The translations under genes and the position numbers were made by a program. From Clostridia bacterium (GTDB taxonomy: Bacteria; Bacillota_A; Clostridia; Oscillospirales; CAG-272), in the NCBI GenBank assembly GCA_017501345.1, contig JAFVXC010000030.1, forward strand, positions 44,556-108,555: 64,000 bases of DNA, given 5' to 3'. The notes under the pieces were generated by a model. It saw nothing but the letters and a program-made list of their open reading frames with translations, was not told where the DNA came from and made no database searches. Below, piece by piece: positions 8,108 through 42,682 of the stretch. How positions within the stretch are numbered: position 1 is the first letter of the stretch; every line of letters begins with the position of its first letter.

Positions 8108-8764
8108 ATGGAAAGCTATAAGAGAGAATTTATTCAGTTTTTGCAGAGTGCAGGCGTGCTCAAGTTCGGTGACTTCACCGCAAAGAGTGGCAGAAAAATC
8201 CCTTATTTCATCAATGCAGGTATGATCAAGACGGGTAACGACATTGCAACGCTCGGTGAGTTTTACGCAAGGGCTTACTTCGAAAAGCTCGGTAAAAAGC
8301 AGGCCGTTCTTTACGGTCCCGCATACAAGGGCATTTCGCTCTCCGTTTCCGCGGCAGTTGCACTGTCGAAAAACGGTCTGAACGTGCCGTTCTTCTTTAA
8401 CCGCAAGGAGGTCAAGGACCACGGCGAGGGCGGCGTTTTTGTCGGCTACGTTCCGAATGCGGGCGAGGAGATCGTCATTATCGAGGACGTGATCACCGCA
8501 GGTACGGCGATCCGCGAGAGCATGGAGATCCTTTCGCATCTGGAAGGCACTAAGGTCGCCGCCACCTTTATTATGGTTGACCGCAAGGAAAAGGGCCAGG
8601 GCGAAAAGGGCGCAATGCAGGAGATCGAGGAGCAGTTCGGCTTCCCCGTATACTCCATTGTTGACGTTTACGATATCATCGAGTACCTCGAGGAGGATCC
8701 CGCAAACGAGGAGAACGTTACCCGTATCAAGAATTATCTTGCAGTGAACGGAGCGAAGGTATGA
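8108..8764 (+). CDS. pyrE: Orotate phosphoribosyltransferase
   Basis: 218 residues, transfers ribose phosphate from PRPP to orotate. The PRPP-binding signature occupies residues 121-138 ([18 protein letters not shown]). The flexible-loop region around 99-108 ([10 protein letters not shown]) is typical. RBS AAAGGAG precedes it. Its stop overlaps the pyrB start in an ATGA arrangement, so the two are translationally coupled. Confidence 0.95.
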
Positions 8765-9861
8765 GAAGCCTCATTGATATTCCCGAGCTTTCGATCGAAG
8801 AGATCGATGAGCTGATCCGGACGGCAAACGACATCATTGAGCATCCCGATCGGTATGCTGACAAGTGTAAAGGAAAGAAGCTCGCGACGCTGTTCTTCGA
8901 GCCCTCGACGCGTACCCGCCTCAGCTTTGAGGCGGCAATGCTCGAGCTCGGAGGCAGTGTGATCGGCTTCTCGGAGGCAAGCAGCTCCTCTGCGGCAAAG
9001 GGCGAAAGCATCGCTGATACCGTGAAGGTCATCAGCTGCTACGCCGATATCGTTGCGATGCGCCATCCGAAGGAGGGCGCACCCTACGTGGCATCGCGCA
9101 ACGCTTCGATCCCCGTGATCAATGCGGGTGACGGTAGCCATTGCCATCCGACGCAGACGCTCGCAGATCTATGCACGATCTCGCGTGAGAAGGGTCGCCT
9201 CGACCATCTGACCGTTGGATTCTGCGGTGATCTCAAATACGGAAGAACGGTGCATTCGCTCATCGCGGCGCTCTCGCGATATGAGGGGATCAAGATCGTT
9301 CTGATCTCCCCCGAGGAGCTTCGCCTGCCAAGTCATATTATGACCGACGTGATCTATAAGAATCATATGGAATATGTCGTGACGGGTAGCCTTGAGGAGT
9401 CGATCCCAGAGCTTGACATTCTCTATATGACACGTGTCCAGGGTGAGCGCTTTGCCGATCAGGCAGAGTATCTGCGCCTTCGCGACCGATACATCCTGAC
9501 ACCCGACAAGCTGTCTATGGCAAAGCCCAATATGGCGATCCTGCATCCGCTGCCGCGTGTCAACGAGATCAGTGTCAAGATCGACGATGATCCTCGTGCT
9601 TGCTACTTTAAGCAGGTCAACAACGGCAAATATATGCGTATGGCGCTGATCTTGAAGCTTCTTGAGGAGGCAAAGGAAAATCCTGCTCGTGAGAGCATCT
9701 CCTATACTGAGGAGGACGGATATCTCGTTGATCGCGTACGCTGCCATAACAATCGGTGCATCAGCACGATCGAGCAGGAGCTTCCGCAGGTGTTCCGCAT
9801 TACGAACGCCGAAAAGCGCGAATGCCGCTGTATTTATTGCGAAAAAAAGGAGGCATACTGA
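8761..9861 (+). CDS. pyrB: Aspartate carbamoyltransferase fused to a PyrI-type zinc domain
   Basis: 366 residues. Residues 1 to about 305 are a complete catalytic chain: carbamoyl-phosphate loop FFEPSTRTR (45-53), [11 protein letters not shown] (123-133), [11 protein letters not shown] (157-167) and HPLPR (262-266). Residues about 322-366 match the zinc half of the regulatory chain PyrI. Cys328-x4-Cys333 sits in RCHNNRCIS, and Cys357-x2-Cys360 in CRCIYCEKK, like E. coli PyrI (NCIS and CKYCEK). The PyrI nucleotide-binding domain is missing, and no separate pyrI is in the window. The protein is therefore neither a plain PyrB nor a full PyrB-PyrI fusion. Expected to trimerise; ATP/CTP control is probably absent. 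Confidence 0.93.
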
Positions 9862-29835: not shown

Positions 29836-30186
29836 TTATTCCTTTGCCATACTCTTTGTTACGACGATATCAACGCCGCATCCGAGTACGTTTTCGAACA
29901 CCGTGTCGCCAAGTGCGACGGGTGCCTCCAGCGTGACGGTGTCAAGAAGACGCATAATGCGCGGGACAAGCTCGCGCGGAACGTCGGAGGCCGTTTTGAT
30001 GGGGCAACGGCGGTGGAGCGCACCGTTGATCTTCACCGTAGAGGTGATCGTACGCGTAGGGGCAGTGACCTCCTTGATGCCATATGCAGCACCACGGGGG
30101 CAAAGATTGCCCGAAACGACATTGTTTTCGATATCGACGGTAAGGTGACAGCCCTTGGGGCAAACCGTGCAAATTACTTTATTCAT
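29836..30186 (-). CDS. DUF1667 protein, third member of a G3P dehydrogenase-like operon
   Basis: 116 residues. Four cysteines (6, 9, 13, 29) in CTVCPKGC and NLCPRGAAYG suggest an iron-sulfur or zinc site. The family is DUF1667, commonly encoded after the two FAD proteins found here. ATG 30186 is chosen because AAAGAGG lies upstream. Likely an electron-transfer or assembly partner; this is inference from context. Confidence 0.85.
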   Translation of the reverse strand: MNKVICTVCPKGCHLTVDIENNVVSGNLCPRGAAYGIKEVTAPTRTITSTVKINGALHRRCPIKTASDVPRELVPRIMRLLDTVTLEAPVALGDTVFENVLGCGVDIVVTKSMAKE

Positions 30187-30227
30187 ACCAGATGAAACCT
30201 CTTTCTTTCGTGATAGGCGCGGAGTGA

Positions 30228-31484
30228 TCACTCCACGACCTCGACTGTGAGGGTGCTCTCGACCTTCTCAAGGAGCGCTTTCGGAAGAACGATCTTTTCC
30301 ATTTCACCGGGTGCCATATGGTCACGCTTGAAGGAAGCGATCTCGTTCTCACCGCTCGTGACGCGGATCACAGAGGCACCGCGAACCTTGTTCGTGCGGA
30401 AGAGGATCTCAAGAGACTTTTCGATGTTGCAGGGACGTACGCGCTGGGGAACGGTGTAGTTGACGCCGTTGCCGTTTACGATCGTGACGATCTCGCCCTC
30501 GACGGGATTGCCGCAGGCGAATTCTGCAGCCGCCTTACCCGCCTTCATACTCTCGACTGTGACGTAGTCGACAAGGTCGTGAACGTGAACGACGTTTCCG
30601 CAGGCGAAGATGCCGTTCTTGTCGGTTTCCATATTCTCATAAACGTATGCGCCGTTCGTGCGGCGGTCAATGCCGATGCCCGCCTCGCGGGAAAGCTCAT
30701 TCTCGGGGATCAGACCGACCGACAGGAGAAGGGTATCGCACTCGATTTCGAATTCGGTTCCGGGGATGGGGGTAAAGCCGTCCACCTTGCTGATCTGCAC
30801 CTTTTGGAGTCGTCTCTTGCCGATGACGTTCGTGACGGTGTGCGAGAGGTAGAGCGGGATACCGAAATCATCAAGGCACTGAACGATATTTCTCGAAAGA
30901 CCGTTGCAGTGCGGAGCAAGCTCAATGCACGCAAGGACCTTCGCGCCCTCAAGCGTCATACGGCGTGCCATAATGAGGCCGATGTCGCCCGATCCGAGAA
31001 TAACGACGCGCTTGCCGGGGAGGTAGCCGTTGATGTTTACGTATCTCTGCGCGGTTCCTGCCGTGAAGACACCGGAGGGGCGGTCGCCGGGGATCGAGAT
31101 CGCACCGCGGGTACGCTCGCGACAGCCCATAGCAAGCACGATCGCGCCTGCGTGATAGACCTGATATCCCTTGTTCTTGCTGACGCACGCGACGGTGCGG
31201 TCAGAGCCGACGTGCAGAACCATCGTGTCGCAAAGGACCGTAATGCTTTCGCGCTTTTTGACCTCTTCAGCGAAGCGCTCGGCGTATTCGGGACCGGTCA
31301 GCGCCTCCTTGAAGTAGTGAAGGCCGAAGCCGTTGTGAACGCATTGATTGAGAATGCCGCCAACCTCGCGGTCGCGCTCGAGGACCAGAACACTGCGGGC
31401 ACCGTTGTCACTTGCGGAAACAGCCGCAGCAAGACCTGCGGGGCCGCCGCCGACTACGATCACGTCATAATTCTTTTCAAGCAT
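30228..31484 (-). CDS. FAD-dependent oxidoreductase (GlpB-like/NADH-linked subunit)
   Basis: 418 residues. An N-terminal FAD site VIVVGGGPAGLAAA (about 8-21), a second nucleotide site VVILGSGDIGLIMARR in the middle, and the C-terminal FACGNVVHVHDLVDYV are typical of pyridine-nucleotide-disulfide-oxidoreductase-like proteins. The redox cysteine region GGILNQCVHNGFG is the version seen with anaerobic G3P dehydrogenase. The start at 31484 overlaps the end of the upstream gene by 8 bases (coupling). Probably passes electrons from the GlpA-like subunit to NAD+. Confidence 0.88.
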   Translation of the reverse strand: MLEKNYDVIVVGGGPAGLAAAVSASDNGARSVLVLERDREVGGILNQCVHNGFGLHYFKEALTGPEYAERFAEEVKKRESITVLCDTMVLHVGSDRTVACVSKNKGYQVYHAGAIVLAMGCRERTRGAISIPGDRPSGVFTAGTAQRYVNINGYLPGKRVVILGSGDIGLIMARRMTLEGAKVLACIELAPHCNGLSRNIVQCLDDFGIPLYLSHTVTNVIGKRRLQKVQISKVDGFTPIPGTEFEIECDTLLLSVGLIPENELSREAGIGIDRRTNGAYVYENMETDKNGIFACGNVVHVHDLVDYVTVESMKAGKAAAEFACGNPVEGEIVTIVNGNGVNYTVPQRVRPCNIEKSLEILFRTNKVRGASVIRVTSGENEIASFKRDHMAPGEMEKIVLPKALLEKVESTLTVEVVE

Positions 31485-32925
31485 TGCCCTTTGCCTCCTT
31501 CGTTTCTTCCACGAGAATGTAGCTGCCGTCGTCGCCGAGCGTGATGTCGAGCGGGGAAACGCCGAGCTCACGGGCGAGGATATCGTGGATCCTTGTTGAG
31601 CAGAAGCCGCCCTGGCAACGTCCGATGCTTGCGCCTGTGCGGCGCTTGATCGAGTCAAGCGAGCGGGGCTGGATCGGACGGTGGATTGCGTCAAGGATCT
31701 CGCCCTCGGTTACCGTCTCACAGCGGCAGATAATGCGGCCATACAGCGGATTCTTGCGAATAAGCTCTGCCTGCTCCTCGGGGGACATACGGTTGAAGCG
31801 AACGACGTGACGCTCGTCGACGATCTCCTTCTTAGGCTCGAGCTTCAGCCCGATGCGTGAAAGGATCTTGATGCCCTCAAGTGCGATCGCGGGAGCCGCA
31901 GAAAGACCGGGGGACTTGATGCCTGCGAGATGCAGGAAATTATCGTTCAGGTACGAGGAGCGGATGATGAAGTCATGGCTGTCAGAGATCGGACGGATAC
32001 CTGCATATTCGTGAATGCTCTTCGAGAAATCGATCGAGGGGACGGACTTGAGTCCGCTCGGCTTCAGCATTCTCAAGGTCTCTGCAACGGTAGCGACCGA
32101 ATCGGCACGGTCAACGATGTAGGCGTCGGGGCCGATGATAAGGTTGCCGTGGACGGTCGGGGAAACGAGAACGCCCTTTCCGTTTTCGTCGGGGCAACGG
32201 AATATGACCGAGTTCACGCGTGTGCCCTCGACCTTGTCGAGCACGTAGTATTCGCCGCAGCGGTGATGCTGCTTGAAGGAGAAGTCACCGATCATTTCGG
32301 CGATCTTATCGGCGTGAGAGCCCGCCGCGTTCACGACGTAGTCCGCGGTATAGGTACCCTTCGAGGTCGTAACGAGGAAGATTCCGTTTACGTACTTGAT
32401 CGTGTCAACTCTGTTTGAAAGATGTACGTCCGCACCGTTCAGAACGGCGGTCTCCGCCATTGCGCAGGTGTACTCCCACGGGTCAACGATCGCAGAGGGA
32501 GCATAGAGTGCACCGAGCACCTCGGGATTGATGTTTGGCTCCATTGCAAGCGTCTCTGCGGTTGAGAGGATACGAATACCCTCAACGCCGTTTGCACGGC
32601 CCTGGTAGTAAAGCTCCTCAATGTGGTCGAGATCCTTTTGCGTGAAAGCGAGAACGAGAGAAGGAAGCTCACGGCGCAGGACCGATAGCTTCTTGCAGAT
32701 CTCCTTCGCGAGACGGACGCCCTCGATGTTCAGCTTTGCGCAAAGCGTTCCGGGGACGGGGTCGTAGCCTGCGTGGAGGATCGCGCTGTTCGCCTTCGTT
32801 GCACCGCAACCGACGTCGTTGCAAGCCTCGACAACACCGACCGAGAGCTGGTATTTGGACAACTCGTACGCCATAGCGGCACCGGTAATGCCGCATCCGA
32901 CGATAAGTACGTTATAATGCTTCAT
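31477..32925 (-). CDS. Glycerol-3-phosphate dehydrogenase-like FAD protein (GlpA type)
   Basis: 482 residues. A DAO-fold FAD oxidase domain (VLIVGCGITGAAMAYELS near the start; GIRPISDSHDFIIR; FLHLAGIKSPGLSAAPAIA) is followed by a C-terminal BFD-like [2Fe-2S] domain with CRCETVTEGEI and RCQGGFC. Predicted to oxidise glycerol 3-phosphate to dihydroxyacetone phosphate. ATG 32925 (MKHYNVLIVG) fits the fold start; its ribosome site is weak (AGGGA). First gene of a three-gene operon. It lies next to an operon with a predicted glycerophosphodiesterase whose product would be its substrate. Confidence 0.87.
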   Translation of the reverse strand: MKHYNVLIVGCGITGAAMAYELSKYQLSVGVVEACNDVGCGATKANSAILHAGYDPVPGTLCAKLNIEGVRLAKEICKKLSVLRRELPSLVLAFTQKDLDHIEELYYQGRANGVEGIRILSTAETLAMEPNINPEVLGALYAPSAIVDPWEYTCAMAETAVLNGADVHLSNRVDTIKYVNGIFLVTTSKGTYTADYVVNAAGSHADKIAEMIGDFSFKQHHRCGEYYVLDKVEGTRVNSVIFRCPDENGKGVLVSPTVHGNLIIGPDAYIVDRADSVATVAETLRMLKPSGLKSVPSIDFSKSIHEYAGIRPISDSHDFIIRSSYLNDNFLHLAGIKSPGLSAAPAIALEGIKILSRIGLKLEPKKEIVDERHVVRFNRMSPEEQAELIRKNPLYGRIICRCETVTEGEILDAIHRPIQPRSLDSIKRRTGASIGRCQGGFCSTRIHDILARELGVSPLDITLGDDGSYILVEETKEAKGNA

Positions 32926-33168: not shown

Positions 33169-33193
33169 AAAAAAGCGAGGCGGGGAAACCGCC
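33169..33193 (-). terminator. Terminator of the 33-39 kb operon
   Basis: GGCGG (33179-33183) pairs with CCGCC (33189-33193), with G-C rich flanks; on the minus strand a TTTTTT run follows (A-run at 33169-33174). Confidence 0.65.
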
Positions 33194-33236
33194 CGAAAGC
33201 GCATAATCCCCACCTTATCAAAAGCGAAATATTCTT

Positions 33237-34274
33237 TTATGAATTCAAAAGCTCATCAAACGTATCCCACGAAAGATCGGCATAGAATCGGTGTCCCTCG
33301 GGACCCGTGATGTTGCGGCAGTTATTTTCTGCGCCAAATGCTTTGTAGATCTGCTTTACACGGGCGAATTCGTTTTTCACCGCTTCATTCGGAGCAAGCC
33401 TGTCATACTGCCCGCTCACAATGACCAGCGGGCGGGGAGCCATAAGAAGCGTGATATCTGCCATATCCATATACGGTAAGATGCCGCTGATATATCCGCA
33501 ATCGCAGTGATGGACCGAGCCCCATGAATCGGCGAGTGAGCAGAAGGCGCAGGAGGGCATCGAGGCCTTGATCCGTTCATCGACGCATGCTGCATAGAAG
33601 GAGGAGGTACCACCACCCGAGTTGCCCATAGCCCCGATCCGTGTTTCGTCGATACAATCAAAGCTCGTGAGAACCGCGTCGATCGCGCAGGAGATGTCGA
33701 GAAGGCGTTCTCCGATCAGGGTTGTACCCATCATCTCCGACTGCCAGACAAGTTCATGGCAAGAGAACTTGAGGTCTTTTATGCCGTTGAGCTCTCCGAA
33801 TCCGCGCTGTTCCATACAAAGTGCCGCGTAGCCGCGCGATACTGCCTGAATGCCGAAGTCTCGGTCTCCCTTGATCTCGATCGGCTCTTTTCCGGGGTAC
33901 GCCTCTCTTGCGAGCGAAACGTGCATTCCTGTGGAATGTCCCTGCAGGCAGATGACGAGAGGGAGCTTTTCCGGTCTGTCCTTCGGGAGAAGCAGATGTG
34001 CGGGAACAAAGAAGCCGGGCTCACTTTCAAAAACGAAGCGGTATTCGTCAAAACGAGGATCGCTCGTGTCGTAGTATTCGATGATCGCTTCGGATTTGAC
34101 TGTTTTTTCGGGAATCTTCAAAAGCTCAAGAAGCTTTTCTGAAATCGCCGTCTTTTGCTCGAATACGTCCTTATTCGGGTCGAAGCGCAGGGAAGGGACG
34201 ATGCGCTTTTGCTTCTCTATGTTGAGGCGAAGCGGATCGACTAAAGTAACCTTTTTGAAATTTGTGTTTGACAT
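33237..34274 (-). CDS. Alpha/beta hydrolase of the acetyl-xylan-esterase/dienelactone-hydrolase type
   Basis: 345 residues, no signal peptide. The nucleophile elbow GNSGGG has Ser219, the oxyanion segment QGHSTG is at 111-116, and the acid/base are Asp291 (GQYDRLAP) and His328 (PEGHRF). Probably cleaves an ester or a small amide. ATG 34274 is supported by AGGAGA. Last gene of the five-gene operon with the D-serine enzymes. Confidence 0.84.
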   Translation of the reverse strand: MSNTNFKKVTLVDPLRLNIEKQKRIVPSLRFDPNKDVFEQKTAISEKLLELLKIPEKTVKSEAIIEYYDTSDPRFDEYRFVFESEPGFFVPAHLLLPKDRPEKLPLVICLQGHSTGMHVSLAREAYPGKEPIEIKGDRDFGIQAVSRGYAALCMEQRGFGELNGIKDLKFSCHELVWQSEMMGTTLIGERLLDISCAIDAVLTSFDCIDETRIGAMGNSGGGTSSFYAACVDERIKASMPSCAFCSLADSWGSVHHCDCGYISGILPYMDMADITLLMAPRPLVIVSGQYDRLAPNEAVKNEFARVKQIYKAFGAENNCRNITGPEGHRFYADLSWDTFDELLNS

Positions 34275-34294
34275 TTTGATTCTCCTATGTTCAG

Positions 34295-34924
34295 TCAAAT
34301 TATGTAGCTCTTGAGCTGCTGTGCAACGTATTTGCCGAGCATAGCGAAGGCGTCTGCCGTCAGATGGCAGTAATCGGCATAGCATTCGCTGCCAAAGGGG
34401 CGAACAAACGTGTTGATATCATTTACGGTGATCCCGTTTCTCTGCATCACGGCAGTTGCAATCGCGTTGTAACGGTCGATCTCCTCGTCGGTTCGTACGT
34501 TCGTGCCCAGCTTACCGCTTGGATTCATCGGCGACGTCGTAGCAAATATCAGGCGGGCGCGCGGGAAGAAATGACGAAGCTGATCGATGATGATCTGCAA
34601 ATTCCTTTCATATTCGGCCTCGCTGGTCAGCGGAAGCGCGTGTCCGTTCCAATGTGCGATATCCCAATGTCCGCAGTTAAACTGAACGATATCGACAAGT
34701 GAGGGATCGCTGAATAATCCTGCCCACTTCTTCATATTGAAGATGATATACTGCGAGCTTCTGCAGTTGTCCTTAAAATAAAAGACCTCAGCAACATCCG
34801 AAAGCTCGTTCTTTACCGTTTCGCAGTAGCCCTGACGGATCGAGTCTCCGATCAGAAAAATGTTGGGCTTTTCCGTGCTGCAGCAGAATACTGCGGTGGA
34901 TTCTCCGTTTTCAACCCATTTCAT
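34295..34924 (-). CDS. SGNH/GDSL-type esterase
   Basis: 209 residues, cytoplasmic. GDS at 26-28 (Ser28), an N-rich block FNCGHWD in place of block III, and a C-terminal D-Y-C-H (DYCHLTADAF) supplying Asp and His. ATG 34924 has GAGG 8 bases upstream. Twenty bases separate it from the downstream alpha/beta hydrolase, so the two hydrolases are co-expressed. Substrate unknown. Confidence 0.82.
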   Translation of the reverse strand: MKWVENGESTAVFCCSTEKPNIFLIGDSIRQGYCETVKNELSDVAEVFYFKDNCRSSQYIIFNMKKWAGLFSDPSLVDIVQFNCGHWDIAHWNGHALPLTSEAEYERNLQIIIDQLRHFFPRARLIFATTSPMNPSGKLGTNVRTDEEIDRYNAIATAVMQRNGITVNDINTFVRPFGSECYADYCHLTADAFAMLGKYVAQQLKSYII

Positions 34925-34984
34925 AGTTCTTACCTCGTTTTTTGCATTTGGATCAGACGTCACTACCATAAAAGTGGCTCCCTG

Positions 34985-36613
34985 TCAAGCCTTTGCCTTT
35001 CTTTTGTCGAGGGCGTTTTTGATGGCGAGACAATCGTTCGTCAAGATGCAATCGACGCCCAGATCGAAAAGAGCCATTGCCTTTTCGGGGTTATCAGAAT
35101 GGCAGTAGTTAACCTTGATCCCGTGCTTGTGTGCGTTAGTGATCATTTCGGGCTTCCACGCGCGATTTACGAGCTGAATCTTGTCAGCCCCGACCGCGAT
35201 CGCGCGCTCGACCATCTCATATTCGCGGTGACCTGCTCCGACGCAAGTGCCGATCTGTGGATACTTCTTCTTCGAGAGTGCGAGCATATCATCGTTTCGG
35301 CTCATAAAATAGCAGTGCTTTTCGCAGTCGTACTTATGAATGAGTGCCGCCATTTCGTCGAGTGATGCTTCGTCGTAGGCCTTGTCCCAGATCTTCACGT
35401 GGATGTTCATAATGCATCTGCCTGCAAATTTCTGAAGGATCTCCTCAAAGGTTGGGATCTTAATTCCCGCAAACTTTTCGCCCTTTTTGATTCCGAAATC
35501 AAGCTCGAGAAGCTCCGCATAGGTGTGATCATACACCTTGCCCGTTCCGGTCGAAACGCGCTCAAGCTTGCTGTCGTGGCTGGAAACGAGCACGCCGTCC
35601 GTTGTTCTCCAGACGTCGAACTCGATCTCCTCGGCGCCGAGCGCGATCGCCGCACCGAAGGCTGCCATGGAGTTTTCGGGTGCTACGGCGTTAAGGCCTC
35701 TGTGGGCGCAGATTCTGGGGTAGGGCATCAGATCGTCGAAGCGGACAACGCTTGCGCCGCCGTTGCGGTAGATCCAGGGGCGTCTGCCGTCCTCAATGTA
35801 TTCGTAGTGAGGCTTGTCGGCTTTTCCGACACCGCCGAAGCCTGCCGCCTTATAATATTTTTTCGTGGGATCGATCTCAACCGTCTCGTAGCCCGCGTGG
35901 CTCTTCATATCGACAAGCACGGTGCCGTCGGGTGCGATCACGCAGCTGCAGCCGCCGATCGGGGATTCCTCTCCTAGAGAGACCGACGCGCGGATCAGGT
36001 AGGAGTTGGTATTGTAGGAAAGAAAGCGGTTGATGATCTCAAGCGCCTGATGGGTATCGGTTCTCTGATGCGAGCAGCCGATGATGACGTCTACGTTCTC
36101 ACGTGCGAGACGCGGGAAGGTCTCGTACATATAGAAGTCGTAGCAGGTCATAAAGCCGTATCTTACCCCTTCGACCTCGATCGTGTAGGGGAGCGCACCG
36201 GGGGTCGAGTAGGAGCTGTCGATCTCAAGACCTCCCACGCTTTCGGGCTTATCCTCCTTCGGAGCGGGGTGAGCCTTATAGTATCTTCCGATCTCGTTTC
36301 CGTCCCGGTCGAGGACGTGTGTGGTGTTCCTCCAACCGTAGTCGCCCTTGTGACCGCAGTTGATGAAAACGTTCGAGTGGCAGCGCTTCGCCATTGCGAC
36401 TGCCGCTTCCATAACGGGCGCGTTGTAACGCTCGATCGACGACATATATGCCTGCTTGCCCTTTTGTGCGGCAGGGATATCGCAGTATTCGGGCATTACG
36501 ATCACGTCGAGGGGCTCGTTGCATTCCTCCATCAGAGCGATCATTCCCTCGAAATTCTTTTGCAGATCATCGGGGTTAAAGGTGTATGCAGGTTGAATAA
36601 TACGTACCTTCAT
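34985..36613 (-). CDS. Nitrilase-superfamily amidase fused to a glycerophosphodiester phosphodiesterase
   Basis: 542 residues with two catalytic domains. Residues 1 to about 290 are a carbon-nitrogen hydrolase with the triad Glu42 (MPEYC), Lys113 (YYKAHPAP) and Cys157 (MTCYD). Residues about 296-535 are a GDPD barrel: CAHRG with His304, APENS, EFDVW with Glu331 and Asp333, and His346 in SSHD. The third metal Glu of the usual NIE(I/L)K is a His (NIHVK, His405). Predicted to cleave an amide (or nitrile) and a phosphodiester, possibly of the same molecule, giving glycerol 3-phosphate. No signal peptide. Located between a D-amino-acid enzyme and two esterases in one operon. Confidence 0.87.
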   Translation of the reverse strand: MKVRIIQPAYTFNPDDLQKNFEGMIALMEECNEPLDVIVMPEYCDIPAAQKGKQAYMSSIERYNAPVMEAAVAMAKRCHSNVFINCGHKGDYGWRNTTHVLDRDGNEIGRYYKAHPAPKEDKPESVGGLEIDSSYSTPGALPYTIEVEGVRYGFMTCYDFYMYETFPRLARENVDVIIGCSHQRTDTHQALEIINRFLSYNTNSYLIRASVSLGEESPIGGCSCVIAPDGTVLVDMKSHAGYETVEIDPTKKYYKAAGFGGVGKADKPHYEYIEDGRRPWIYRNGGASVVRFDDLMPYPRICAHRGLNAVAPENSMAAFGAAIALGAEEIEFDVWRTTDGVLVSSHDSKLERVSTGTGKVYDHTYAELLELDFGIKKGEKFAGIKIPTFEEILQKFAGRCIMNIHVKIWDKAYDEASLDEMAALIHKYDCEKHCYFMSRNDDMLALSKKKYPQIGTCVGAGHREYEMVERAIAVGADKIQLVNRAWKPEMITNAHKHGIKVNYCHSDNPEKAMALFDLGVDCILTNDCLAIKNALDKRKAKA

Positions 36614-36678
36614 AGTGGGAGACTCCTTTTATGCTTTTCTTTTTATTGTCTTGCTTTTATGATGTGCGCTTGCTTCGA

Positions 36679-37740
36679 TCAATGGAAGCAGCCTCTTGCC
36701 GTAACCAAAAATCGATCGACGACCTTGTCACCGTCAAAAAGATAGATGCGGTCGTGAAGATTGACGGTGGAGCAGCAATGCGCGGGAACGAGCAACACCT
36801 TGTCGCCTACGCGAAGCGTCTGTGAAGGATCGTGCAGCTGAAAATGCTCCTCGCTGGCTACGATATGCGACACCGAAAAATCGCGGGGGACGGGCATTCC
36901 CTGATCGACCCCACAGGATTTCACACCTGCGTCGACTACGGCGATCTTGTCATTGACGCTGACTACCGTGGTGAGAATAAACAGGGAAGAGCGGAAGGGG
37001 AGCGCAAGGTCTCCGTAGGTAGCGTCCATAAACAGATAGCTTCCTGCCTGAAGCTCCGTATAAAGATTTTCACGCGCCTTGATGACCGACGTTCCCGTGC
37101 TACCGCCCGAAAGAACTCTGACCTCGATGCCTTTCCCCTTGAGATACTGAAGCAGCGCTTTGATCTTTTCTGTGTTGGCTTTCGTTTGTGCAGCTCTGTC
37201 CTCGATCGAAGCGACGTGAGAGATGTGACCTGCATACGCTTGTATTCCGTCGAACACGAGGTGAGGGCAACGCCCGATCAGCGCGGCAAGCTCCGCTACC
37301 TTTTCCTTGTCCGAAACGCCGCAGCGCTCCATACCGATCTCATATTCCACGAGGCAGTATACCGTGGAGCCTGCCGAGGCAGCCGCCTCTTCGATATCCA
37401 ATATGTTTTTTTCATTGTCAACACATACCGTCAGGCGGCAGGCGTTTGCAAGATGAGCGAGTCGAGATATTTTTTTCTTGTCCACGATCTGATTTGCGAT
37501 CAGGATATCGTCGATCCCGCTGTCCGCGAGGTCAAGTGCCTCGTCGAGCTTTGCGCAGGTGATGCCGACGGCTCCCATCCGCATTTGCTCGTGCGCGATC
37601 GCAGAGCACTTATGGGACTTGTAATGAGGGCGCAGCTTCAGTGAGCTGCCCGACAAAAGCTCGGACATTTTTTCTGCGTTTTCTTCAAAGATCCTTTTGT
37701 CCACGACCAAAGCGGGGGTCGAAATGTTGTTCAGAGTCAT
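36679..37740 (-). CDS. DSD1-type PLP enzyme (D-serine dehydratase / D-threonine aldolase family)
   Basis: 353 residues, fold type III (alanine-racemase-like barrel). The PLP lysine is Lys41 in RPHYKSHKC, and the C-terminal metal motif H-x-C is His321/Cys323 in VPAHCCS. GGSTGTS binds the cofactor phosphate. Members deaminate D-serine or cleave D-threonine to glycine and acetaldehyde; I cannot choose. The start has GAGGAGG upstream. It follows a fold type II D-serine dehydratase by 68 bases. Confidence 0.86.
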   Translation of the reverse strand: MTLNNISTPALVVDKRIFEENAEKMSELLSGSSLKLRPHYKSHKCSAIAHEQMRMGAVGITCAKLDEALDLADSGIDDILIANQIVDKKKISRLAHLANACRLTVCVDNEKNILDIEEAAASAGSTVYCLVEYEIGMERCGVSDKEKVAELAALIGRCPHLVFDGIQAYAGHISHVASIEDRAAQTKANTEKIKALLQYLKGKGIEVRVLSGGSTGTSVIKARENLYTELQAGSYLFMDATYGDLALPFRSSLFILTTVVSVNDKIAVVDAGVKSCGVDQGMPVPRDFSVSHIVASEEHFQLHDPSQTLRVGDKVLLVPAHCCSTVNLHDRIYLFDGDKVVDRFLVTARGCFH

Positions 37741-37808
37741 AATGGTATGAATCCTCCTCTATGTAAGATAATATTGATTTGCAGGCTTGTGCTTTGTAAT
37801 GGGAATGA

Positions 37809-39152
37809 TCAAAATTTATCGTAAACGGCGGCTCCTTGACGGTAATACTTTTCGTATTCGCTCGGCGGCACCATACTTCCGCCGGTAGCCCATACCAGAT
37901 GATAGCCGCGGGGTAGCTTTCCAAGCTTCCTTGCGAGCATAACGGGACCGAACATCCCCGCCAAAGCGCTTGGCTCGAGATGGAGCTCCTCCCGATCTGC
38001 CACCATTTTTAGTAGTGCGCTCATTCTTTCATCGGAAACCGAGTAACAGCCGTCCATAAAATCATACATTTGCTTTCCGACGAAGCCCGATGCTCTTCCA
38101 ACGGCAAGCCCGTCCGCTATCGTTCGGTTATGAATGCCGAAATCGCTTGTGGATATTTGATTGTGCAGGCCGGTTGCCATCCCAAGGAGCATACAGCAGG
38201 ACTGTGTGGGCTCAGCAAAAAAGCAATGAACGTTGTCTCCATACTGCATTTTAAGCCCAAAGGCAACACCTCCGGGACCTCCTCCGACGCCGCAAGGTAA
38301 ATATACGTAAAGGGGCATCTCGTCGGTTATTCTTACGCCTTGCTCGTCAAGCTGCTTTTTGAGTCTTTCTGCAGCAACGGAATATCCCAGAAAAAGCGTC
38401 CTCGAATTCTCGTCGTCAATGAAAAAGCAACGATCGTTTTTGAGAGCGGCTTTTCTGCCGTTTTCAACCGCAGCACTGTAGTCGCTCGCGTATTCTATGA
38501 CCGTAACGCCCCTTGCGCGCAGCAGATCCTTTTTCCACTGTCTTGCATCGGCGGACATATGCACGGTGACCTTGAAGCCAAGTTGTGCGCTTATAATGCC
38601 GATGGAAAGCCCTAAATTCCCGGTTGATCCTACGGCAATCTCGTATTGAGAAAGGATGTCACGGTATTTTTTCTCTGCGAAAGCTGCGTAATCATCTGTT
38701 TCCTTAAGTCCGCACTCCCGCATTGCTATCTTTTCTGCGATGCACAGGACCTCATATATCCCGCCCCGAGCCTTGATCGAGCCGGAAATAGGCAAATGGC
38801 TGTCCAGCTTGATCAGAAGCTCGCCGTTTATGCTCACACCGTATTTTTCTTGTAAGCTCTTCTTCATATTGGGAATCGCCCGAAGCGGAGATTCTATGAT
38901 CCCGTCGTCCTTGGCTGTTTCAGGAAAGGCGATCTTAAAATATCTTGCAAATCGCTGCAGTCTGTCGGATGCATCCTTGATATGAGAACGATTGATCTCG
39001 GATTTTTCAAGTGCTTCGTCAAAAGGAAGCTTGTTTTTATTGATCCAAAGCGTCTCTTCTCCCTTGATTGCATCGCCGAGCACAGGCACCTCGGTGATCC
39101 ATTCATTCACCGTTTTGCCGAATATCTCTTTATTCAAATTTGTATGACTCAT
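37809..39152 (-). CDS. dsdA: D-serine ammonia-lyase
   Basis: 447 residues, the usual DsdA length. It is a fold type II PLP enzyme converting D-serine to pyruvate and ammonia. The PLP lysine is Lys127 in SGSIKARGG, with LDSHLPISG before it; [12 protein letters not shown] and [13 protein letters not shown] are the cofactor loops. First gene of the operon. No dsdX transporter or dsdC regulator is adjacent, which is unusual for dsdA loci. Confidence 0.92.
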
Positions 39153-39210: not shown

Positions 39211-39239
39211 ATTATAGCATAAAAAATCTTGCTTTTCAA
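39211..39239 (-). promoter_or_regulatory. Promoter of the dsdA operon
   Basis: Minus strand TTGAAA (39234-39239), 17 bases, TATAAT (39211-39216). Confidence 0.87.
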
Positions 39240-39306: not shown

Positions 39307-39338
39307 AAGGAAACGGCACGATTGTGTGCCGTTTCCTT
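39307..39338 (-). terminator. Hairpin after the epimerase gene
   Basis: AAGGAAACGGCAC (39307-39319) pairs perfectly with GTGCCGTTTCCTT (39326-39338). An AT-rich run follows on the minus strand, so partial termination is likely. Confidence 0.65.
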
Positions 39339-41188: not shown

Positions 41189-41211
41189 CGGAAGCTTGAA
41201 TTCACATAAAA

Positions 41212-41256
41212 AGTAGGGCTGTCTCACTGAGGTGAGACAGCCCTACTTGGTTTTTT
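41212..41256. terminator. Terminator between the AraC gene and glnA
   Basis: A perfect 17-bp stem, AAGTAGGGCTGTCTCAC (41212-41228) with its complement at 41233-41249 around TGAG, then GGTTTTTT. Same family as 16862 and 26348. Confidence 0.92.
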
Positions 41257-41257
41257 A

Positions 41258-42682
41258 TCAAAGATTGTAATATCGCTCAAATTCAGCGGGATGCGGGATC
41301 TTTGAGAGCTCGAGGCACTCTGCCCGCTTGGTTTTGATGAGATTTGCGATAAGCTCCTTCGGGAAAACGCCTTCCGCGGTGAGATAGTCGTTATCAGCCT
41401 CCAGCGCGTCGAGCGCTTCGGGAAGCGAGGTGGGAAGACCCTTGAGCTTCGCCTTCTCCTCGTCGGAAAGATGGAAGAGGTTGAAGTCGTAGGGGCCCCA
41501 GCCGTTTTCGTGCGGGTCGATCTTGTTCTTGATACCGTCGAGACCTGCCATCAGGATCGCCGCGTAGCAGAAATAGGGGTTGCAGGTTGCATCGGGATTA
41601 CGAAGCTCGAAGCGACGCTTTTCGGGGCTCTTGGCGTAGGCGGGGATGCGAATGACCGCCGAGCGGTTCGAGGTCGCATATCCGACCGTAACGGGTGCCT
41701 CAAAGCCGGGAACGAGACGCTTAAAGGAGTTCGTCGAGGGGTTCGTGATCGCGCAGAGCGACGCGATGTGTCGGAGAAGTCCGCCCATAAAGTAGTGCGC
41801 GGCCTTTGAGAGATGCGCGTAGCCGTTATCATCAGAGAAGACGGGCTGTCCGTCCTTCATAAGAAGCATATGGACGTGCATACCGCTGCCCGCCTCGCCA
41901 TAGATGGGCTTCGGCATAAAGGTCGCGGTCTTGTCATACCTCAGCGCGGTGTTGTGGATGATATACTTGATCATCATCGTTGCGTCCGCCATATGAACGA
42001 CCTCTCCGAGCTGGGGCTCGATCTCAAACTGACCCGATGCGGCAACCTCGGGGTGATGGTAGTTGATCTCGATGCCTGCGTCCTTCATATGCATACACAT
42101 TTCACTGCGGCACTCATAGGAGACGTCAAACGGCTTTGCAATGTGGTAGTTTTTCTGCTTCTGCACGATGACGCCCTTGCCATTGACCGAGCTGTTCCAA
42201 TAGGACTGCTGTGCATCGACCGACGCACCTACGCAGTTCGGTTCAACACTCCAATTTACGTTGTCGAATAGATAGAATTCAAACTCGGGAAGGATATACA
42301 TTTCGTCTGCGACGCCGCTGTCCTGCATTGCTTTTACCGCCGCTTTGATGACGTTTCTCGGATATTGGGGAAGAGGACGGTTCTCGGGAGTGTCGATGAT
42401 CATTGCATTTCCCGTCATCGAGAGCGTGGGGATCGAGCAGAAGGGATCGATCACAGCAGTGTCGGGATCGGGAATGAATACCATATCACTCTTTTCGACG
42501 ACCGCGTAGCCGTAATTCGACGCATCAAAGCCGATTCCGCTTTTCATCGTATCCTCCGAGAAATTTTCTGCGGGGATGGTTACGTGACGGTACTGACCGT
42601 TGATGTCGACCATCTTGAAGTCGACCATTTTGATGCCCTTTTCTGTGATGAGGGCAAGGATGTCTTGTACGCTTTTTGCCAT
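41258..42682 (-). CDS. glnA: Glutamine synthetase type I
   Basis: 474 residues, ATP-dependent synthesis of glutamine from glutamate and ammonia. The N-terminal beta-grasp (DFKMVDINGQYRHVTIP), metal glutamates in LPEFEFYLF and SGQFEIE, and the active-site segments GSGMHVHM and NRSAVIRIP are intact. The adenylylation tyrosine motif is replaced by NLFHLSDEEK (Phe), as in unmodified Gram-positive enzymes. A monocistronic unit with its own promoter; no glnR alongside. Confidence 0.95.
   Translation of the reverse strand: MAKSVQDILALITEKGIKMVDFKMVDINGQYRHVTIPAENFSEDTMKSGIGFDASNYGYAVVEKSDMVFIPDPDTAVIDPFCSIPTLSMTGNAMIIDTPENRPLPQYPRNVIKAAVKAMQDSGVADEMYILPEFEFYLFDNVNWSVEPNCVGASVDAQQSYWNSSVNGKGVIVQKQKNYHIAKPFDVSYECRSEMCMHMKDAGIEINYHHPEVAASGQFEIEPQLGEVVHMADATMMIKYIIHNTALRYDKTATFMPKPIYGEAGSGMHVHMLLMKDGQPVFSDDNGYAHLSKAAHYFMGGLLRHIASLCAITNPSTNSFKRLVPGFEAPVTVGYATSNRSAVIRIPAYAKSPEKRRFELRNPDATCNPYFCYAAILMAGLDGIKNKIDPHENGWGPYDFNLFHLSDEEKAKLKGLPTSLPEALDALEADNDYLTAEGVFPKELIANLIKTKRAECLELSKIPHPAEFERYYNL

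Follow-up and report, generated by a model that had tools for sequence, protein, structure and literature searches.

Within a 64,000-nucleotide stretch of DNA from a Clostridia bacterium (contig JAFVXC010000030.1, positions 44,556 to 108,555; the whole stretch is referred to here as the window), five genes lie on the minus strand between positions 33237 and 39152. They encode a D-serine ammonia-lyase (DsdA), a second D-amino-acid enzyme of the DSD1/D-threonine aldolase type, a nitrilase-GDPD fusion protein and two putative esterases. With families assigned by Pfam and NCBIfam profiles, the genes and the signals flanking them are as follows, in the direction of transcription:

39307..39338, minus strand: hairpin dividing an NAD-epimerase gene from the five-gene unit, likely the terminator of that upstream gene
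39211..39239, minus strand: predicted sigma-70 promoter of the five-gene unit, TTGAAA-17-TATAAT with TG before the -10 element (11/12 match)
37809..39152, minus strand: dsdA, D-serine ammonia-lyase, 447 amino acids (NF002823 and TIGR02035 scores)
36679..37740, minus strand: DSD1/D-threonine-aldolase-like enzyme predicted to use pyridoxal phosphate (PLP) and a metal, 353 amino acids (Ala_racemase_N and D-ser_dehydrat)
34985..36613, minus strand: nitrilase-GDPD fusion, 542 amino acids (CN_hydrolase at residues 2-248, GDPD at 304-527)
34295..34969, minus strand: SGNH/GDSL hydrolase, up to 224 amino acids (Lipase_GDSL_2, PF13472)
33237..34274, minus strand: AXE1-like alpha/beta hydrolase, 345 amino acids (AXE1, PF05448)
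33178..33194, minus strand: predicted intrinsic terminator, a hairpin followed by a T-run (hairpin search)

An earlier note on this DNA had described these five genes as served by one promoter at 39211-39239 and closed by a hairpin near 33180. The minus-strand open reading frames (ORFs) and the profile matches agree with its gene positions and families, and both the promoter and the hairpin were found, the latter at 33194-33178. The gaps between the genes measure 68, 65, 15 and 20 bp when the AXE1-like gene is taken to start at 34274, which its ribosome-binding site makes a likely start, rather than at the ORF start at 34385. Promoter-like sites matching at least 11 of 12 positions number three between 29600 and 41300 (33055, 39239 and 29741), against a mean of 0.1 and a maximum of 1 in 40 approximately dinucleotide-preserving shuffles of the same region. 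Because the gaps are short, the promoter matches at 11 of 12 positions and hairpins stand at both outer ends, the five genes likely form one transcription unit, as the earlier note had proposed. Two weak terminator-like matches lie inside it, at the junction of the DSD1-type and fusion genes (36733-36717) and at that of the fusion and SGNH genes (34991-34976). The leader region contains no Rfam family at gathering score, and its sub-threshold matches look like chance. Riboswitch control was rejected as a candidate, the gathering score being reached in the window by two tRNAs only.

A hydrophobic N-terminal signal is visible by eye in none of the five proteins; all of them thus appear to be cytoplasmic, and their substrates should be small molecules. 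The unit's five genes include no transporter gene either. For both reasons a polymer substrate, such as teichoic acid or an intact lipid, fits badly.

The dsdA product scores 639.8 bits with NF002823 (cutoff 246) and 624.1 bits with TIGR02035 (cutoff 368.25) and has a PALP domain. By these profiles it is a clear member of the D-serine ammonia-lyase equivalog family, with the corresponding activity predicted. Elsewhere, in locus L166 (G083:C23, 3904-6791), a dsdA gene lies directly 3' of an M81/MlrC-type metallopeptidase gene, with which it shares four bases of ORF.

Among solved structures, the second protein matches BhcC best (6qkb, 232.7 bits), with the D-threonine aldolases 7dib and 4v15 in the same range of 228-233 bits; the chicken D-serine dehydratase 3anu is more distant (73.8 bits). 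Its alignment gives Lys41 as the PLP lysine, His175 at the place of AxDTA His193, and His321 and Cys323 as putative metal ligands. Among 120 listed relatives, chosen by similarity, the PLP lysine and the cysteine are kept in 120/120 and the base histidine in 119/120. According to PMC4401734, the metal of AxDTA is held by His347 and Asp349 and its base is His193; the chicken dehydratase binds metal through His and Cys and is without that base. Judged by its aligned residues, the window enzyme is a mixture of a dehydratase-type His-x-Cys metal site and an aldolase-type base histidine, and it may catalyse either an aldolase or a dehydratase reaction.

The third protein joins two hydrolase domains. 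Glu-Lys-Cys is the catalytic triad of the nitrilase superfamily, and its residues E42, K113 and C157 are invariant in 121/121 fusion sequences. An identity as N-carbamoyl-D-amino acid hydrolase was considered and rejected: in those enzymes an Arg-Arg pair after the catalytic Cys binds the carboxylate of the substrate, and this pair aligns to Phe160-Tyr161 in the fusion. The GDPD domain scores 117.8 bits (Pfam cutoff 23.6) and keeps the motif HR-EN-ExD-HD, as given in PMC4926365, in the form of H304, E313, E331, D333 and H346. H304 and E331 recur in 120/121 fusions, D333 and H346 in 121/121. The metal ligands of TtGDPD are Glu44, Asp46 and Glu119 (PMC4926365 and PMC5095149). The position aligned to the third of these is His405 in the window protein and His in 120/121 fusion sequences. 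The same position is His in 119/120 of the nearest listed relatives of a single-domain version, a list chosen by similarity that includes some two-domain proteins. No motif was obtained from two fusions and five single GDPDs, which were not scored.

Since alanine at any of the three ligands inactivates TtGDPD (PMC4926365, citing Shi et al.), such a near-invariant replacement may indicate that the domain has ceased to be a hydrolase of the GlpQ kind and now has another metal, another reaction or a ligand-binding role alone. We regard this as rather unlikely. The remaining catalytic residues are kept in 120-121 of 121 sequences and histidine is itself able to ligate a metal, which makes hydrolysis by means of another metal at least equally probable.

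Source names accompany 5 of the 120 listed relatives of the fusion, and all five read hypothetical protein. None of 45 viral stretches that matched a pattern encodes a relative. On plasmids, 330 records resemble portions of the fusion at below 60% identity, none over 80% of its length. Titles and abstract openings in the searched literature, which misses most subscription papers, yielded no paper on a nitrilase-GDPD fusion and none on a DSD1-like clade of the kind described above. Variants of the architecture were also seen. In L186 (G514:C59, 2935-4527) the partner of a His-type GDPD is a type I phosphodiesterase-like domain and not a nitrilase, which could stem from a deletion that removed the nitrilase portion or from an assembly error; in L005, by length the same contig as L194, an 87% identical phosphodiesterase gene lies directly 5' of the nitrilase-GDPD gene. 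A split or frameshifted version is seen in L184 (G526:C204), where the nitrilase and the His-type GDPD keep the fusion's order and match in neighbouring, different frames.

The SGNH hydrolase scores 37.6 bits with PF13472 (cutoff 32.9), and by eye an in-frame ATG at 34922 seems to have the better ribosome-binding site. The AXE1-like hydrolase scores 38.7 bits with PF05448 (cutoff 21) and has, by eye, its serine in GNSGGG. AXE-like esterase genes were found beside single-domain GDPD genes in 2/20 fetched AXE loci, L162 (G191:C64) and L152 (G142:C49).

To see how these genes are distributed, we compared 396 genomes of one order, judged to be the same set in all four gene searches, with hand-chosen cut-offs for the DSD1-type gene (E<=1e-80, dropping 45/54 matches) and the AXE-like gene (E<=1e-60, dropping 27/45 matches). 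The fusion was found in 9 genomes, dsdA in 21, the DSD1-type gene in 9 and the AXE-like gene in 18. Two associations stand out: dsdA accompanies the DSD1-type gene in 8 of its 9 genomes (0.48 expected), and the AXE-like gene accompanies the fusion in 4 of 9 (0.41 expected). Pairs across these two groups occur at chance level, with fusion and dsdA together once, fusion and DSD1-type never, dsdA and AXE-like once, and DSD1-type and AXE-like never. No genome of the 396 has all four; SGNH was not part of the genome-wide search. Three of the four (fusion, dsdA and AXE-like) occur in G371 alone, spread over three contigs. The dsdA and DSD1-type genes are adjacent in 0/8 co-occurring genomes, lying on different contigs in seven and 91 kb apart in G170. 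In the family of G004 the fusion model matched 44/186 genomes (a few matches being partial), dsdA was found in 5 and both in 3. The fusion thus occurs without dsdA in 8/9 fusion genomes of the order and in 41/44 of that family.

A scan of genome contigs gave 396 stretches encoding fusion relatives, of which the best 80 were kept as 79 loci, many with incomplete flanks; 58/79 have titles naming a herbivore gut (sheep, deer, goat, cattle, yak, buffalo or horse). Partner genes were searched by tblastn (E<=1e-5). The ORF calling sometimes chose antisense ORFs, marked the fusion ORF in 71/79 loci and missed the DSD1 or AXE ORF of some of the fetched loci that have such a gene. The full five-gene set was found in 0/79 loci, their flanks being partly incomplete, and the DSD1-type, AXE-like and GlpO-like genes were each found in 0/79. 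An SGNH relative is present in seven (L002, L025, L028, L031, L036, L043 and L066), and in L028, L031, L036 and L066 it lies directly 5' of the fusion on the same strand, at 31-34% identity. Near the fusion, dsdA was found in two loci, L046 and L054, where the order is a SASA-like esterase (by motif), the fusion, a protein without Pfam match (in L046) and dsdA. With fusions 96.6% and dsdA products 93.7% identical, these two are sister species and were counted as one event. Of 100 listed adjacent same-strand neighbours of the fusion, 82 were scanned; SASA esterases and GH2 proteins occur four times each and APH, GDSL and PHP proteins three times each, and no fixed partner gene emerged among them.

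We consider it moderately probable that the unit is a locally assembled single transcription unit joining two separately distributed modules, in a relative of herbivore-gut Clostridia. Taken as a whole, the operon is probably a local arrangement. The first module, dsdA and the DSD1-type gene, would degrade beta-hydroxy D-amino acids. DsdA would convert D-serine to pyruvate and ammonia, as expected of its family, and the DSD1/D-threonine-aldolase-like enzyme would cleave or dehydrate another of these amino acids, D-threonine being the most likely one. The second module, comprising the fusion, SGNH and AXE1-like proteins, would supply scavenging hydrolases: the E-K-C triad of the fusion may split a C-N bond and its modified GDPD site a small phosphodiester, and the two other enzymes may take off ester groups. 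Central metabolism would receive the products, namely pyruvate, ammonia, glycine or 2-oxobutyrate, alcohols and possibly glycerol 3-phosphate.

The chance-level counts across the modules, together with the variable surroundings of the fusion, DSD1-type and dsdA genes, would also suit a history in which recent gene gain placed D-amino-acid and hydrolase genes under one promoter with no functional relation. We hold this to be unlikely, given the compact spacing within one bounded unit and the reappearance of dsdA beside the fusion in the L046/L054 lineage.

Several points weigh against the reading of two separately distributed modules joined locally. In L046/L054 dsdA is the second gene 3' of the fusion, with an M20-type amidohydrolase gene further on from dsdA in L046, where the locus was scanned. 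In the family of G004, 3/5 dsdA genomes also match the fusion (one-sided p 0.09). The SGNH relative of L028, the one among the four 5'-adjacent relatives that was scanned with Pfam, matches no family at E<=1e-3. The near relatives P0002-P0004 of the fusion, 76-83% identical, lie on metagenome contigs outside the neighbourhood comparison. Moreover, the co-occurrence tests ignore kinship between genomes, the metagenome-assembled genomes are incomplete, and so are the flanks of many loci. The two modules could also share a substrate used only by the lineages of the window and of L046/L054.

Directly downstream of the unit lies a second operon (29836 to ~32925) with its own 12/12 promoter at 33055-33027:

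31477..32925, minus strand: gene 1, GlpO-like FAD oxidoreductase (DAO) with Fer2_BFD (NF033460, 324.8 bits, under the cutoff of 460)
30228..31694, minus strand: gene 2, Pyr_redox_2 oxidoreductase (its likely start lies inside the ORF)
29836..30231, minus strand: gene 3, DUF1667 protein (Pfam)

The same triad recurs in L193 (G409:C106, 7167-11655), where dsdA lies directly 3' of it in the same orientation, as the fourth gene of the cluster, with a DeoR-like gene (by eye) on the other side. In 30 genomes searched, 27 of them with known dsdA, the GlpO-like gene was found in 14, 13 of which also have dsdA. The two genes are side by side only in G409, and in G371 and G373 they share a contig at distances of ~27 and ~19 kb.

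This operon bears on the dedicated pathway put forward in the earlier note, in which the five enzymes would open one D-serine or D-threonine conjugate stepwise and deaminate the amino acid, the GlpO-like complex using the released glycerol 3-phosphate. Compatible with it are the compact operon, the position of dsdA in L046/L054 and in L193, the presence of fusion, dsdA and AXE-like genes in G371, and the fact that, among nitrilases of known structure, N-carbamoyl-D-amino acid hydrolases match the fusion best. However, that last match is a weak one, at 28.6 bits with the domain and 44.9 bits with the profile, and has Phe-Tyr for Arg-Arg, L046 and L054 count once, the fusion mostly occurs without dsdA, and it has no GlpO-like gene nearby in the 79 loci. 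The earlier note had looked to conserved co-occurrence of the five genes; as far as the 79 loci and the four genes tested in 396 genomes reach, they do not co-occur elsewhere, and we now think the pathway improbable. A D-amino-acid conjugate common to both modules is possible, its comparative support consisting of the L046/L054 lineage and the link between dsdA and the triad in L193. In a bolder reading, the fusion would be a bifunctional enzyme with a new GDPD metal centre of two acids and a histidine, splitting small molecules with amide and phosphodiester bonds, such as deacylated N-acyl phospholipid headgroups, and tied through a D-serine-bearing substrate to D-serine catabolism in the window and L046/L054 lineages; this we think very improbable.

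On the other side of the unit, a glutamine synthetase gene (41258-42682) lies within a few kb of both dsdA and the fusion. Glutamine synthetase genes stand at similar distances of a few kb from dsdA in L191 and from the fusion in L055 and L058. A glnA-linked neighbourhood was dropped, as glnA stands on different sides in L191 and in L055/L058. Between glnA and an AraC-type gene, a 17-pair hairpin with T-rich tails on both strands (41211-41248) is likely a two-way terminator. Further away, the pyrimidine cluster at ~0.9-10 kb includes an aspartate carbamoyltransferase (8761-9861) whose C-terminus matches the PyrI metal-binding domain.

The fusion family with its altered metal ligand appears unusual and is the part of the unit that looks most novel. 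About one in four sampled genomes of a gut Clostridia family (44/186) gave a match to it, and its two joined hydrolase domains come with an almost invariant change at a metal ligand whose exchange for alanine inactivates TtGDPD (PMC4926365). Its substrate would show what molecules with amide and phosphodiester bonds are recycled by gut bacteria, and the DSD1-like clade offers a direct test of what decides between an aldolase and a dehydratase reaction.

Compared with known systems, the window's dsdA gene belongs to the D-serine ammonia-lyase family by a full-length match far over the curated cutoffs. Its setting differs from the dsdCXA locus: the adjacent window genes scanned include no transporter, and dsdA stands with a DSD1-type gene and hydrolases. 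Like D-threonine aldolase, the second enzyme keeps the PLP lysine and the base histidine, but its metal site is His-x-Cys and not the His-x-Asp of AxDTA. Measured against the chicken-type D-serine dehydratase, for which a His and a Cys ligand and no such base are described, it has His-x-Cys together with the base histidine. With the 3-hydroxy-D-aspartate aldolase BhcC the likeness amounts to 304.5 bits, under the NCBIfam equivalog cutoff of 690. The nitrilase half shares its fold and E-K-C triad with N-carbamoyl-D-amino acid hydrolase, Nit2 and amidases, but the fusion is without a close solved relative (28.6 bits at best, for the domain alone), and its best NCBIfam score is 29.3 bits against a cutoff of 355. 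Unlike TtGDPD (2pz0) and B. subtilis GlpQ (5t91), the GDPD half sits behind a nitrilase domain and has a histidine for the third acidic ligand. NitFhit (1ems) likewise combines a nitrilase with a second hydrolase; its partner is, by name, Fhit, whereas that of the window protein is a GDPD domain.

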